Positions 25,713-31,571 of a stretch of DNA of 64,000 bases are shown here, one piece after another; the first letter of the stretch is position 1; every line of letters begins with the position of its first letter. The position numbers and the translations under genes were made by a program. The stretch covers positions 3,482,501 to 3,546,500 of the forward strand of contig NZ_CP035952.1 of NCBI RefSeq assembly GCF_004214895.1, given 5' to 3'. Under the pieces are notes generated by a model. It did no database searches. It saw nothing but the letters and a program-made list of their open reading frames with translations, and was not told the DNA's origin. This DNA comes from Pseudomonas tructae (GTDB lineage Bacteria; Pseudomonadota; Gammaproteobacteria; Pseudomonadales; Pseudomonadaceae).

Positions 25713-26618
25713 GTGGAAGACCTCAACGACCTGTACTACTTTGCCCAAGTGGTCGATCACGGTGGCTTTGCCCCGGCCGGCCGCGCCCTGGACATGCCCA
25801 AGTCCAAGCTCAGCCGGCGCATCGCCGGGCTGGAAGAACGCCTGGGCGTGCGCCTGATCCAGCGCTCGACCCGGCACTTTTCAGTGACCGAGATTGGCCA
25901 GGCCTACTACCGCCACTGCGTGGCCATGCTGGTCGAAGCCGAAGGCGCCGCCGAGCTGATCGAGCGCAACCGCGCCGAGCCCCAGGGCATCGTGCGCTTG
26001 AGCTGCCCGACGGCGCTGCTGGATTTCTGGGTCGGGGCCATGCTCACCCGCTTCATGGTCCAGTGCCCGCTGGTGCAATTGCACATCGAAAGCACCAACC
26101 GCCAGGTCGACCTGATCCAGGAAGGCATCGACATCGCCCTGCGCGTACGCGTGCCGCCACTGGAAAGCAGCGACCTGGTCATGAAGGTGATGGCGCGCAG
26201 CACCCAGTACCTGGTGGCGGCGCCGTCCTTGCTCGAACGCTTGCCACAGCGCCCGGTACCTGCGGACCTGAGCGCCCTGCCCAGCCTGCACTGGGGTTAC
26301 CCGCAGCGCGACTACCACTGGCACCTGCTCGGCCCCGACGGCGCCCGCGCAAGCCTGCGGCACACCCCGCGCCTGGTCACCGATGACCTGGTGGTGTTGC
26401 GTCAGGCGGCGGTGGCCGGTGTGGGGGTGGTGCACCTGCCGCAAGTGGTGATCCGCGAAGAGCTCGAGGCCGGGCGGCTGCTGCAAGCCACGCCGAACTG
26501 GGCCCCGGAGTGCGGCGTGGTACACGCGGTGTTTGCCTCGCGGCGCGGGCTGCTGCCGTCGGTGCGCAGCTTGCTGGACTTTCTGGCGGCGGAGTTTGAG
26601 GCCAGTGATATCGCGTAA
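25713..26618 (+). CDS. LysR-family regulator of the pirin/hydrolase operon
   Basis: 301 residues. Opens with GTG: MEDLNDLYYFAQVVDHGGFAPAGRALDMPKSKLSRRIAGLE, the AaeR/DsdC-like helix-turn-helix. GGAG at 25702-25705 supports the GTG at 25713, although a long open frame extends upstream. Divergent from pirin, so control of the pirin and isochorismatase genes is likely. LysR regulators beside pirin/YcaC genes are common in Pseudomonas. Confidence 0.87.
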   Translation: MEDLNDLYYFAQVVDHGGFAPAGRALDMPKSKLSRRIAGLEERLGVRLIQRSTRHFSVTEIGQAYYRHCVAMLVEAEGAAELIERNRAEPQGIVRLSCPTALLDFWVGAMLTRFMVQCPLVQLHIESTNRQVDLIQEGIDIALRVRVPPLESSDLVMKVMARSTQYLVAAPSLLERLPQRPVPADLSALPSLHWGYPQRDYHWHLLGPDGARASLRHTPRLVTDDLVVLRQAAVAGVGVVHLPQVVIREELEAGRLLQATPNWAPECGVVHAVFASRRGLLPSVRSLLDFLAAEFEASDIA

Positions 26619-26630
26619 GTGACTGCAGAC

Positions 26631-29600
26631 TTAGAGCAAGGGGAATGCCAGGAGACGAGCCGTTTCGCTCATCCAGGCAGGAATATAGCCTTTGCGCGTC
26701 TCTCGCAATTCGACAAGTTGTGCACGCCAGTGCTCGTCACTTAGACCGAATCTATGGTCACTGAAAGCGTTCAACAATAGATGCTTGTTACGCACCGAAA
26801 ATTGCTGGGAGAAGTCCAATTTCTCCCAACACTCCTTGGCACGCTTGACTGATTGCAATGTCGACTCGGAAAACGCCAACAGCCAATGTTGCTCATAGTC
26901 CAACGAACGTTGTTTCTGGACATTGCCACCTACAGCGACAGGCCGTCGTGCTTCTTCCTCCATCGAGCCCCCATCCCTTAACCATCGAACATACGCGCCC
27001 CCCAAGCGGCCCTCTTCGAAGGAATACCGAAACCTCTCAGGATTGCTTTGAACCAGAAGCTCGTACAGCGCCAGCAGTTCTTCTGACAGCGTCACTGAAG
27101 CGTCGAAATTTCCCGCCTCCGCCTCTATGACCATACAGTTCGAGAGTGTATCAGCCAGGACCTTGCCGAATCGCTCAGGTTTGGACTCTGCGAGCGCCCG
27201 ATTGATCGATAGACTCTCCTTGGTCAGCCGTAATGCTTCCTCTATCTCACCGACATCCGATAGACGCGCAGCGTAAGTCATCAATGTCAGCGCAAAGTTC
27301 TGCCGATGCTTCTCGGGCTCGCTCTCCATCAATGCGCGACGCAGCCCCAAGCCCTCTTTATTTGCAGCCAACGCCTTGTGAATATGCCCGTTCATCCCCA
27401 GGCACCTGGCGTAGATACTCAAGCTGACGGCCAGATCGTTCTGGTTGGATTTGGAAACAGCTCGTCCAACGCTTCTTGTTAACTGAAGCCCTTCTTGACT
27501 CAATTGCAAGGCTTCTTCGGACTTTCCACAATCGGCCAAGCAACTTGCACAGATCCCCAATGTCTTCGAGAGCTCAATGCAATCTTTATTTCCATGCACC
27601 GAAATAATCTGCCTACTGAGCCGCAGGGCTTTCTGGGCGCTGGCCAATGCCTCGTCATTTTGACCCTGGACGGTCAGCAACTCCGAATGCAACCTCAAGT
27701 GCCAATTCTGCCTCAGGTCATTGTCACGCGAGCCACGAAGCTTTGGTCCGAGCGCAAGTGCTTGCTCAACAACCGCTAATGCTTCGCGTGTCTGCCCATC
27801 GTTCTTTAACGCAAAGGTTAAATGCCCAAGAGCTGCTGCGTAATCCTCAATGCTGCGCGAGGTCTCTTTTTTACTCATTTTCTGGAGGCACCGGAGGACT
27901 TGGCTCTGCCGCACAGAAATACTCAGTTTGGCCAACGGTACAATGTCGTAGTTCAACCATTGCATCAGCGCACCCGAAGCCTGCGACTGCAATCGAGGAG
28001 GTAGCCCCTGATAGGCGCGCTCAACGACCTCAAGCAAAGGACCGGATGTCTCGAGGCAGACTGCAATGCAATCATCGACACATGAAACAAAGTGCCGTCG
28101 CAAAACTTCTTCGATTACCGGTAACAGATCTTCGCGTTCGCGCAGCAGACGGGCTACCACTGTCAGGCTGGAACGTCTCAGCGCGTGACTACCGCTAGCC
28201 AGTACCTGATCAAGCAGTTCCACTCCACGCGCGCCCAGCAGGCTCTGCGCCACTAACGCCTCACCAATCAGATCAGGTCGCAAGCCTTGCAGGCCCTGAT
28301 GGTGATCCGGATACAAGGGGGTAAGCATCCGGTAAAGGGACTTGAGTTCAGTTCGCTCGACGTCCGAAACGTCAAGAATGTCTTCCAGCATGCGCTCAGT
28401 AGCGATGCCATTGGCCAAAGTGGACAGTGTCATCAATACACTCGCCCGATGAACGACTTCCTCTCCCTGGTCTGCGGTTGCCCCCAGCATCTTGGCCCAG
28501 TAACGCCGCTCATGGTTGACCAGTGCTCGCGGCAACGCCTCGGCAGACTTCGGCCGCTCGCCACGCAGGGCCATCAACGCCGCCATCTGGATGTAAAGAG
28601 GCCTGGAGAAGTGTGAATCCTCCAGATCCGGTATGTGCTCCGGCGGATGCACTTCCAACTTTTCGGCGAATGCCGCTAAAGCCTGATTGTAAGCCGATTG
28701 CCTCGAGTCGGGACTTGCATGGAGTGCCGGCAGAATGAACGGGCCGCTGGTAGCGGGCCCTTCCAGCACGTCTTCACACTGACTGTCTTTGCCGGGCAGC
28801 ACGTTCCACCATTCGCCCCCGGCGCGGGCTAACAGAAGTAAACGTACTGGCTGAATCTGCGACTTGTCCTTGAGCCCCTTGATCAGGGCAAGCAGAAGCG
28901 GCTGGCGGGTCTCGGCGTAGTCGATCACGATCAAACTGGGGGTTGGACTTGCAACCAGGCTCCGAGCCAGCTCCTGCACTTTGTCGGTGTCACACTCACC
29001 CGCCAGAAATCCTGCATTCCATCCCTGTAGTTGCATCCGTCGGCACATTTCCAGCGCCATGCGCGTCTTGCCGACACCCCCTGGGCCACAGAGCAAACGC
29101 ACTTGCAAGGTAAAATCAGATCGCTGTACCCACTCCAACTGCGTTAGCAGAAAGGGTTCACGGTTGGCATCGAAAGGCACGATTGCCTCTTCGGCACGCA
29201 AGAGCTGACTGTCGCTCAAGCCCTGTCTCGGCCGCCAGGTTGCCTTGGGTAATACAAAACCAGGCAGGACCTGACTCGCGACCGTCTCGATAGGCGAAGT
29301 CGTGTCGGTAGCAAGCGGTGCATTCGGACGCTGTTCATGCGCCTGCACGGGAGCACTCTCCAACACCCAACCCAATGCTTGCCCACAGGACTGCGCGCAC
29401 TGCGCCCACGAATAAAGGCCGCACAGTTTCTCCCGCAGGCGAAAGGCATCGTGGCGTTTGGACGGGTCATGTGCAATCAGCGTCAGCGCCTTGACCAGCC
29501 GTTCGACATCAGTTGCTGAGTGATAAGGCGCCTGCTCACTGCCTTCGACATCCATTGTCGTGACCCAGGACTTGTAAGCCCCGTGTTCAAGCTCTTCGAG

Positions 29601-30623
29601 CAACTTGTACGCACCACTTTTCACACTCAGCACCAGCGGCACGCCTGCGGCGATCGCCTCCCAGGCTACCAGGCCAAACCCTTCATGCCAGGACGGCATC
29701 ATTGCAACGGATGAACCTCGCAAGTCGTCGAATAGTACCTGCCGTTGCGCAGTAAAAGGCAGAGGCTGGATGTTGACCACACGCCCCGCTTGCTCCTGTG
29801 CGTAACGTCGCAGTTCCGCTTCCGCATCGTCACCGGCGCCTTGCGTGATGTTTTCGAAATCTACGCCACGCAACAACAACTTTGGTTCGTTCTTGCCCTG
29901 AAACCTGTTGGGCATTTCCGGTTGTGCGTCTGCTTGACGAATCGCCTGGGAGAACGCTGCAACCCCCAGATGCGCCTGTTTGATTTTCCTTGCGTCAGCA
30001 CTCAGACGCCCACTCAAGAATCCTTTCAATGTCTTGGGTTCACGCTTGGCAGTGATTTCCGCCAATCCTGGAACCAACATTGGGATCGACTCATGGTCGA
30101 GCATGTCGTACAACGCATCGCGTAGCAGCGGGCCAACAGCCATCACCACGTCCGCAGCCTGAAACAACTGCCGTTGTTCATCCTCTTTGGACCTGGCCCG
30201 CTGGGCGTTCTCGACAAAGGGCTCATAGCGTTCATAGCTCATATGGTGGATCAATGCCGACCGTCCACCTCGCGCTTTCGACGCTAAGGCAATGGCACCG
30301 GTAATGCGGTCATGCCCCAACCAGACGCACCGCGCATCTATCTCAATCCCTGCCGCTGCCAACGCTTGCCAAGCCAGATGCTCGTGGCCGGATGCAAACT
30401 GCTTTTGCTCCTCCAGCCCCAGCGAAATCAGCGTTACCTGCTGGGCTGCGGCATCATCGCGCTCCTGCTCACTGGCCCAAAGCACCACACAGACAGTCCG
30501 GGCCTGGCGATAGTACAGCGCAGAAAACGCCCCTAGCAGGTCACTATTGAAACTGTTGATCCCACCAAATTGAGGTCCCCAGCGAGTGGCAAAACTGATC
30601 AAGGTATCGAGCGCAGGCATCAT
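26631..30623 (-). CDS. GT4-like / STAND NTPase / TPR three-part protein
   Basis: 1330 residues, one gene, no close partner. Residues about 10-420 resemble a GT-B glycosyltransferase of the GT4 type: N-terminal GPQFGGINSFNSDLLGAF (16-33), and the donor-site EX7E motif E314-E322 in SWHEGFGLVAWEAIAAGVP. Residues about 475-800 are a STAND/AAA-like P-loop NTPase: Walker A GPGGVGKT (513-520), Walker B LIVIDYAET (564-572), and an arginine after the sensor strand (LLLLAR, 595-600). Residues about 920-1195 hold roughly six TPR-like repeats (for example DGQTREALAVVEQAL, CGKSEEALQLSQEGL, VGEIEEALRLTKESL). This effector - switch - sensor order is that of STAND defence and cell-death proteins. Base content is clearly lower than its neighbours (27 of 60 GC in 27541-27600 against 47 of 60 in 46021-46080), a sign of transfer. 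A glycosyltransferase as effector is unusual. Function is inferred, not known. Confidence 0.75.
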   Translation of the reverse strand: MMPALDTLISFATRWGPQFGGINSFNSDLLGAFSALYYRQARTVCVVLWASEQERDDAAAQQVTLISLGLEEQKQFASGHEHLAWQALAAAGIEIDARCVWLGHDRITGAIALASKARGGRSALIHHMSYERYEPFVENAQRARSKEDEQRQLFQAADVVMAVGPLLRDALYDMLDHESIPMLVPGLAEITAKREPKTLKGFLSGRLSADARKIKQAHLGVAAFSQAIRQADAQPEMPNRFQGKNEPKLLLRGVDFENITQGAGDDAEAELRRYAQEQAGRVVNIQPLPFTAQRQVLFDDLRGSSVAMMPSWHEGFGLVAWEAIAAGVPLVLSVKSGAYKLLEELEHGAYKSWVTTMDVEGSEQAPYHSATDVERLVKALTLIAHDPSKRHDAFRLREKLCGLYSWAQCAQSCGQALGWVLESAPVQAHEQRPNAPLATDTTSPIETVASQVLPGFVLPKATWRPRQGLSDSQLLRAEEAIVPFDANREPFLLTQLEWVQRSDFTLQVRLLCGPGGVGKTRMALEMCRRMQLQGWNAGFLAGECDTDKVQELARSLVASPTPSLIVIDYAETRQPLLLALIKGLKDKSQIQPVRLLLLARAGGEWWNVLPGKDSQCEDVLEGPATSGPFILPALHASPDSRQSAYNQALAAFAEKLEVHPPEHIPDLEDSHFSRPLYIQMAALMALRGERPKSAEALPRALVNHERRYWAKMLGATADQGEEVVHRASVLMTLSTLANGIATERMLEDILDVSDVERTELKSLYRMLTPLYPDHHQGLQGLRPDLIGEALVAQSLLGARGVELLDQVLASGSHALRRSSLTVVARLLREREDLLPVIEEVLRRHFVSCVDDCIAVCLETSGPLLEVVERAYQGLPPRLQSQASGALMQWLNYDIVPLAKLSISVRQSQVLRCLQKMSKKETSRSIEDYAAALGHLTFALKNDGQTREALAVVEQALALGPKLRGSRDNDLRQNWHLRLHSELLTVQGQNDEALASAQKALRLSRQIISVHGNKDCIELSKTLGICASCLADCGKSEEALQLSQEGLQLTRSVGRAVSKSNQNDLAVSLSIYARCLGMNGHIHKALAANKEGLGLRRALMESEPEKHRQNFALTLMTYAARLSDVGEIEEALRLTKESLSINRALAESKPERFGKVLADTLSNCMVIEAEAGNFDASVTLSEELLALYELLVQSNPERFRYSFEEGRLGGAYVRWLRDGGSMEEEARRPVAVGGNVQKQRSLDYEQHWLLAFSESTLQSVKRAKECWEKLDFSQQFSVRNKHLLLNAFSDHRFGLSDEHWRAQLVELRETRKGYIPAWMSETARLLAFPLL

Positions 30624-30698
30624 GCGTAAGTTCTTTCGGTCCAGGATAGGCTGACAAACAATGATGGCATTGTACCTTCATCCTGATCCCGATTCTGA

Positions 30699-31571
30699 TC
30701 AACCTAACAGGAACTTTTCCACCCACTCACTGCACGCCGCCGCATCTTCCTGCATAAAACAGTGCCCGCCCGGCACTTGGTTGGCCGTGACCTGAGGGTT
30801 GTTGCGAGCCCAACGCTGAACCGACTGCGGCACGAAGGGATAGGTGCTTTCGCCGTAGAGCACCAGGGTCGGGGTGCGTACCTGGGCCAGCGAAGCCCAC
30901 ATGCGCCGCGGGAAGGAGCTGAAGATTTCTACTTCGCGGCTGGGCCGGCACTTGAGCACTACGCCTTCGCCGCAGTCACCAATGGCGTGCTCGATGTAGG
31001 ACTGCAACGCCGATTCGCTCCAGCCCTTGAAGATCCCCCGGCCCTCCAGCGACGATCGCGCGGCGCTGCGATCGGGCCAGTGGCTGCGGCGGGTGGCGGC
31101 CTTGCGGGCCAGGGCATGGCGACGGTGCAGGCCGACCAGTGCCGCAGCACCCATGATGCCCATCATCGAAGAGGTAAAGAGCACCGGGTCGAGCAGTACC
31201 GCGCGCTGGAACAGCCGGGGCTGCTGCGCCAGCATCAGGCCGCTGAGCACCCCGCCAAAGCTGTGGCCGACGGCAAAGCGCGGTACTTCACCGTACTCGC
31301 CACGCCCCGCTTCGAAAGCCTCGATGGCCAGCGTCGCGGTGCGGTTCCAACCGGCGAACGGCCCGCCATGATCGCTGTCGCCATGGCCCTGGACATCGCA
31401 CAGCCACAGGTCGAAATGCTCGGCCAGGCGCGCCAGCAACGGCTGGTAGGCCAGGCAGCAAAAGCCGTTGCCATGCAGAAAATGCAGCAACGGCTTGCCA
31501 CTGGCTGGGGAGCTCCAGCCGCGCAGGGTGAAGCCAGCACTTGTGTCATGGGACCAGGGAATCAACTGCAT
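30699..31571 (-). CDS. Alpha/beta-fold hydrolase
   Basis: 290 residues. Oxyanion motif HGNG (33-36), nucleophile Ser104 in VGHSFGGVLS, and the catalytic histidine in VPGGHCFMQED near the end. A typical soluble esterase/lipase-type enzyme with a helical lid in 125-190; substrate unknown. The ATG at 31571 is taken; an in-frame GTG lies four codons upstream at 31583. It follows the LysE-type gene by 17 bases on the same strand, so they may share a message. Confidence 0.85.
   Translation of the reverse strand: MQLIPWSHDTSAGFTLRGWSSPASGKPLLHFLHGNGFCCLAYQPLLARLAEHFDLWLCDVQGHGDSDHGGPFAGWNRTATLAIEAFEAGRGEYGEVPRFAVGHSFGGVLSGLMLAQQPRLFQRAVLLDPVLFTSSMMGIMGAAALVGLHRRHALARKAATRRSHWPDRSAARSSLEGRGIFKGWSESALQSYIEHAIGDCGEGVVLKCRPSREVEIFSSFPRRMWASLAQVRTPTLVLYGESTYPFVPQSVQRWARNNPQVTANQVPGGHCFMQEDAAACSEWVEKFLLG

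Follow-up and report, generated by a model that had tools for sequence, protein, structure and literature searches.

Known systems

Domains of glycosyltransferase family 4 (GT4) were predicted in 2021 to act as effectors in counter-invader systems, some of them as fusions to STAND NTPases (signal transduction ATPases with numerous domains), and the text of that paper describes AP-ATPase, NACHT, SWACOS and nSTAND2 switches, often with the GT4 domain C-terminal (PMC8195603). We discuss here one gene of Pseudomonas tructae, in a stretch of 64,000 nucleotides of contig NZ_CP035952.1 that we call the window, whose product of 1330 amino acids (aa) joins a GT4-type domain, a STAND NTPase and an array of tetratricopeptide repeats (TPR). 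It resembles the proteins of the 2021 prediction (Kaur et al.) in having a GT4-conflict domain and a STAND NTPase in one protein and in the effector role predicted for the former. It differs in its N-terminal GT4 domain, nSTAND5-like NTPase and kinesin-light-chain-like TPR array, which are absent from the text of PMC8195603 but may be in its figures or tables.

The TIR-NLR of P4-like satellites is a TIR-STAND-TPR protein that protects E. coli from phages; the presumed target of its TIR effector is NAD+ of the host cell, and SIR2 or nuclease domains replace TIR in STAND proteins of the same hotspot (PMC9122126). In the work on the double-autoinhibition STAND protein of structure 6mfv, a STAND protein with a TPR sensor is described as closed in its ADP-bound state, an inducer being needed for it to bind ATP and multimerise (PMC6468293). 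DS-8, described as a tested anti-phage protein, has a metallophosphatase on a NACHT NTPase. The Avs (AVAST) proteins share the order of effector, switch and sensor.

The window protein is like TIR-NLR in being one protein with an N-terminal effector, a STAND module and a C-terminal TPR array, with effectors swapped among relatives, but the effector of TIR-NLR is TIR. With Avs5 (SIR2-STAND) the likeness is in the STAND structure 9jap, at rank 6 among the Foldseek matches of residues 430-1330, and again the effector is a different one. The window protein matches none of the PADLOC models of Avs (AVAST) or TIR-NLR. The top Foldseek match for those residues is 6mfv, which has a TPR sensor and presumably no glycosyltransferase, with low whole-match TM-scores (0.24/0.31). 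We found no experimental report of a glycosyltransferase effector in an anti-phage STAND protein in the literature searched, which included few subscription papers and bioRxiv preprints.

The window protein and its domains

We conclude that the window gene is a real, well-built GT4-STAND-TPR fusion, most likely with an immune role, and with a chemically unusual predicted effector (Table 1). We think it likely that the product makes up by itself an NLR-like (STAND) defence system of the GT4-conflict type, in which a glycosyltransferase switched on by an invader would arrest growth. The order glycosyltransferase (GT) domain, STAND switch, TPR array, as read in the original prediction made from the DNA alone, is confirmed by Pfam profiles, alignment, predicted model and Foldseek. 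There are 264 homologues at E <= 1e-3 (8000 candidates scored), and the best match among the 120 listed, P0001, is 74% identical over the whole length (GT 88%, STAND 78%, TPR plus tail 60%). Conservation was assessed by aligning the window protein with 55 homologues (56 sequences in all) picked among those listed, some of them fragments. The window gene has no tandem DNA repeats.

The N-terminal domain matches GT4-conflict (PF20706), named in Pfam as "Family 4 Glycosyltransferase in conflict systems", over residues 10-412 with 256.5 bits against a cut-off of 26. R206, K215 and E314 are present in all 56 aligned sequences, and position 322 is E in 55 and D in one; we take E314-x7-E322 to be the EX7E motif of retaining GT4 enzymes. 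The GT-B fold on which the original reading depended is present in the predicted model as two Rossmann domains, and with the intact EX7E motif this places the domain among GT4/GT-B enzymes. By motif and model it is apparently an intact glycosyltransferase. The nearest solved folds, at 11-18% identity, include MshA, BshA and sucrose-phosphate synthase, which are biosynthetic enzymes not known to carry a STAND switch.

With regard to annotation, every one of the 14 control genomes has a match above the PF20706 cut-off, so calls made by gathering cut-off alone probably overcall membership of conflict systems; the next-best match in the source genome has 44 bits. The gene had been put forward as a candidate novel defence system, and this can no longer be maintained, as GT4-STAND conflict proteins were predicted in the text of PMC8195603 and Pfam already has a named family for the domain. 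The same two points rule out a novel effector, and the window protein is therefore a member of a class already predicted.

For the switch, every one of the 56 sequences has G515, G516, G518, K519, T520 and D568. Alignment, model and Foldseek together give a P-loop NTPase with conserved Walker A and B motifs, a helical module and C-terminal repeats, as in STAND proteins. The nSTAND_NTPase5 profile (PF25199) gives 16.8 bits against a cut-off of 34 that is not reached, and 22.9 bits, also below it, in a relative in genome G244; it is reached at three actinobacterial plasmid loci (L137, L138 and L139). As to its clade, the STAND module of the window protein has weak nSTAND_NTPase5 and AAA-type matches only, and neither NACHT nor NB-ARC is among the matches listed at E <= 10. 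The rows of VIA-align were taken up by the GT domain and TPR folds, so that the lack of a STAND row there is uninformative.

The TPR array matches the kinesin light chain profile (E 4e-20) and has paired helices in the predicted model. Per alignment column, pairwise identity averages 0.51-0.52 across the GT domain, 0.53 in the STAND core and 0.50 in the remainder of that module, and falls to 0.36 in the TPR (residues 921-1195) and 0.23 in the tail (1196-1330), the least conserved of the domains, which indicates that enzyme and switch are held while the would-be sensing end changes. Among homologues, some represented by fragments, TPR plus tail vary from 253 to 628 aa and the STAND module from 418 to 436 aa. 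In the homologue of Parasulfuritortus cantonensis (L085:12808-15213) the C-terminal array is built from a 147-bp (49-aa) unit repeated 16.4 times with 95% match, the copies being nearly identical; judged by its repeats, it is a recently homogenised, putative repeat sensor.

Table 1. Features of the window gene and genes beside its relatives (window positions unless a locus is named)
Feature	Position	Strand	Basis
Whole gene, 1330-aa GT4-STAND-TPR protein	26631..30623	(-)	homologue search
GT4-type GT-B glycosyltransferase, residues 1-420, predicted effector	29364..30623	(-)	
EX7E motif, E314/E322	29658..29684	(-)	alignment of 56 sequences
Variable linker, residues 421-470	29214..29363	(-)	predicted local distance difference test (pLDDT) score <50 at 425-449; conservation 0.21 at 426-470
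STAND NTPase module, residues 471-900	27924..29213	(-)	profile, alignment, predicted model, Foldseek
Walker A GPGGVGKT, residues 513-520	29064..29087	(-)	K519, T520 in 56/56
Walker B strand and start of conserved DYAETR, residues 564-572	28908..28934	(-)	D568, Y569, A570, E571, T572 in 56/56
Kinesin-light-chain-like TPR array, residues ~901-1217, predicted sensor	26973..27923	(-)	profile and paired helices in model
C-terminal tail, residues 1218-1330, with nearly invariant P1315 and W1317	26634..26972	(-)	alignment
Stretch without counterpart in relative G015 (empty site), ends approximate	26612..30725	no strand	
469-aa overlapping genes	L063:14218-15627; L068:13933-15342; L069:13924-15333; L076:4735-6144		
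"trypco2 family protein" genes	L137:4979-5317; L138:4987-5298; L139:5150-5479		

Domain exchange among relatives

An effector in a STAND receptor predicts exchange in both directions, the switch taking other effectors and the effector taking other switches, and such exchange is seen. Two relatives on plasmids of Streptomyces xanthophaeus and S. cellulosae (L137 and L138) carry Trypsin_2 N-terminal to the STAND-TPR module; both exceed the nSTAND_NTPase5 cut-off and have TPRs. On an IMG/VR contig another protein (L135:5666-8002) carries TIR_2 in that position, its NTPase match staying below the cut-off; this last protein matches the known TIR-NLR model over the TIR part only. Conversely GT4-conflict is fused to nSTAND1 and an FGE-sulfatase domain in L096 and to NACHT and HEAT repeats in L102, and lies beside weaker NACHT-type matches in L097 and L100. 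The swaps of effector on the same STAND-TPR module thus support the defence role that had been predicted.

The position of the domain also bears on whether it is an effector at all. In another reading the domain would sense or bind a sugar nucleotide or glycan and not act as an enzyme. GT4-conflict is indeed C-terminal, on the usual sensor side, in L099, L100 and L101 (with a STAND-type match in L100 only), while the text of PMC8195603 describes C-terminal GT4 domains in STAND proteins, some also with an N-terminal TIR or caspase domain. However in the window protein the domain is N-terminal, the sensor side is already taken by the TPR array, and the conservation of R206, K215, E314 and E322 given above is against a binding role, which we regard as distinctly unlikely.

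Other architectures were met in the course of this comparison. N-terminal GT4-conflict is found in proteins of about 1280-1450 aa from Pseudomonas and Paraburkholderia (L105:9848-14188 and L112:9974-13816), which end in a radical SAM match, exceeding the cut-off only in L105, and a B12-binding match that stays below it in both. Nine more loci (L104, L107, L108, L110, L111, L114 and L116-L118) are similar to these two in size, and L141, a protein from a Rhizobium plasmid, has a GT4 match and the annotation "cobalamin-dependent". In Pelosinus fermentans (L101:8879-11230) a squalene-cyclase/prenyltransferase-like toroid is followed by GT4-conflict. In all three actinobacterial plasmid loci fetched, the gene immediately upstream of the STAND-TPR gene encodes a "trypco2 family protein".

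Distribution and insertion site

Of 398 genomes from the genus, 4 have a match at E <= 1e-100, as do 2 of 369 genomes from the class, with the source genome counted. The window gene has a G+C content of 56.1%, against 63.8% for the window. In genome G015 the flanking LysR-type and hydrolase genes adjoin with nothing between them, giving an empty site (the names LysR-type, alpha/beta hydrolase and pirin-like for flanking genes were assigned by eye). The gene for the G244 relative (1282 aa, 54% identical over residues 6-959, with GT4-conflict and TPR over cut-offs) begins 543 bp beyond a gene for an Rz-like spanin, behind genes for tail sheath, tape measure and tail protein. This is an accessory-cargo spot in a prophage. 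Small variable prophage loci are described as hotspots of anti-phage systems (PMC9122126), and this one may be such a locus. The low G+C content, the empty site, the patchy occurrence and the copy behind prophage genes all bear out the horizontal gain that had been proposed.

P. rubra ID1025 has the same allele (98% identical), truncated there by the ends of contigs. At this site P. donghuensis HYS has an allele with only 55% identity in its N-terminal and 40% in its C-terminal piece, between flanks identical at 97.7% (LysR-type), 97.1% (pirin-like) and 91.8% (hydrolase), the lowest other full-length neighbour compared being at 89.7%. The site therefore seems, from these identities, either to swap alleles or to let them diverge far faster than their surroundings.

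The HYS frame is broken into open reading frames (ORFs) of 546 and 763 aa, and the homologue at L092 is also split, as might be expected if the gene were a passenger or mobile-element cargo decaying by chance and not kept for defence. Yet the window copy is intact with all motifs present, an intact 1318-aa P. donghuensis protein (P0027, representing 18 member sequences) is 98-99% identical to the HYS pieces, and the P. rubra copy is as close to that of the window, so that we consider chance decay very improbable indeed.

Relatives are present in 67 of 72,556 plasmid records, none with 80% coverage. Among viral contigs three relatives were found in 57 pattern matches, one of them a GT4-STAND relative (L134) that is putatively viral, and a second viral scan with the TIR cousin as query matched only itself.

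The neighbourhood takes up other cargo too, as P. rubra has beside the hydrolase gene a 1191-aa ORF with ToxA_N, LRR and NEL (E3 ligase) domains (L056:2944-6519) that the window does not have. In P. donghuensis HYS an efflux-like operon (MFS/HlyD/OprM, by eye) and an AraC-type regulator gene lie between the allele and the hydrolase gene (L052:11818-16696). The hydrolase is thus unlikely as a partner of the window gene.

Neighbouring genes

The neighbours surveyed comprise 147 ORFs, up to three on each side at 35 homologue loci, called by a longest-ORF script and not a gene finder. The PADLOC set has 144 of these (three long ORFs left out); Pseudomonas loci L057 and L080 were excluded and L072 has no neighbour. 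The original prediction had made the defence role depend on homologues not always lying in sugar-biosynthesis clusters and sometimes lying near defence genes. The first part stands: no sugar-gene neighbour is conserved across loci, nor is any prominent among the 25 of 171 Pfam families listed, which include one glucokinase and one GH15. The second is weakly supported, by confirmed known defence neighbours at no fewer than two of the 35 loci, Wadjet JetB and JetC at L092 (the JetC outside the 144-ORF set) and a Septu-like PtuA ATPase at L079, plus a SLFN/AlbA_2-type partner in four loci of Geobacter type. The figure of two is a lower bound, because PADLOC matches to MzaA, RtcR-type, PDC-M37B and DRT-type models were not traced to a locus.

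In the four Geobacter-type loci the homologue shares its last 4 bp with a 469-aa gene, and the L063 copy of that gene, the only one scanned singly, has SLFN_AlbA_2 and HATPase_c_4 domains; it is a possible second component in this subgroup. An all-against-all comparison of 379 neighbour ORFs found no partner gene common across the family and none recurring in more than four loci. Single-gene defence systems also appear as lone genes.

At E <= 1e-15 the 144 neighbour ORFs match 98 PADLOC model families (25 listed), against 4 in 125 control ORFs from 15 loci with ordinary glycosyltransferases (NsnA, PD-T4-2_A and PycC once each, mad3 in five). This contrast is inflated and we do not use it, as one UvrD-type helicase (L086) alone matches 40 families and the PtuA-like ORF of L079 matches 53 at E <= 1e-10. 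Of the ten neighbour ORFs checked singly at this threshold, four (at L063, L073, L075 and L088) had no match; the helicase neighbours of L086 and L089 may be ordinary genes, and an ORF at L064 has weak pAgo/Aga-type matches only. Overall the neighbourhood gives weak support to the defence reading.

These data also bear on a regulated metabolic or envelope glycosyltransferase, in which the STAND-TPR part would sense a metabolite, as in MalT, and control sugar transfer. STAND-TPR regulators of metabolism are described, the closest folds are metabolic GT-B enzymes and some GT4-conflict domains are joined to enzyme-like domains, but a metabolic role is unlikely given the lack of a conserved sugar-gene neighbour, the rare and patchy occurrence of window-type genes, the prophage position of the G244 copy and the trypsin or TIR carried by the same switch elsewhere.

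Proposed role

There are several points against a role in defence. The sole PADLOC match of the window protein is a weak one to DrmD (E 0.0013) at the P-loop, and its NTPase is below the cut-off of every STAND family in Pfam. MalT and AfsR are described as STAND-TPR transcription regulators, and the architecture is therefore not specific to immunity; GT4-conflict is joined elsewhere to radical-SAM/B12-binding-type or squalene-cyclase-like domains, and these combinations have no obvious immune role. The confirmed defence neighbours are limited to the two loci named, many neighbours of homologues are housekeeping genes, the contig with the TIR cousin is short (8 kb) and only putatively viral, and there are no homologues in 50,697 phage genome records.

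The defence role that we still prefer takes as its basis the domains, predicted folds, intact motifs, effector exchange, mobility and divergent alleles at one site. By analogy with other STAND proteins we infer an ADP/ATP switch, multimerisation and a sensor function for the TPR array. At rest the NTPase would hold ADP and the TPR array would keep the protein closed. A sign of a phage or other invader would be bound by the TPR array and tail, letting ATP in, and the STAND cores would then multimerise and bring together or expose the N-terminal GT4 domains. The retaining GT4 enzyme would move sugar from a nucleotide-sugar donor, most likely of the UDP type, onto an essential host molecule or macromolecule, and growth would stop before phage is made.

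The sugar donor, the acceptor and the host rather than the phage as target are the least certain part. Transfer to a host molecule is our leading guess because the effector of the similarly built TIR-NLR is presumed to target NAD+ of the cell itself. The text of PMC8195603 proposes instead that GT4 effectors target invader molecules or invader-host interfaces, and in that case the same switch would lead to a phage protein or phage DNA being neutralised, or marked for lectin-like sensors. The two genes flanking the window gene are not lectin-like (by eye), and the nearest folds include enzymes with small-molecule acceptors, which says little either way; we see action on the invader as a minor but real possibility. 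For the fuller version of the host-directed proposal, an NLR-like receptor that would kill or protect the cell through glycosylation of an essential host molecule (or by draining a nucleotide sugar), with exchangeable alleles at one site and also carried on prophages, our confidence is evenly divided.

If a glycosyltransferase effector is indeed present, it would add a transfer reaction, with a probably essential target, to anti-phage designs that carry TIR or a metallophosphatase, and it would tie these bacterial proteins to the GT4 domains that the text of PMC8195603 describes in invertebrate TRADD-N proteins. The window gene is a good test case, being one protein with intact motifs, a relative with an empty site, divergent alleles and close homologues in cultured pseudomonads.

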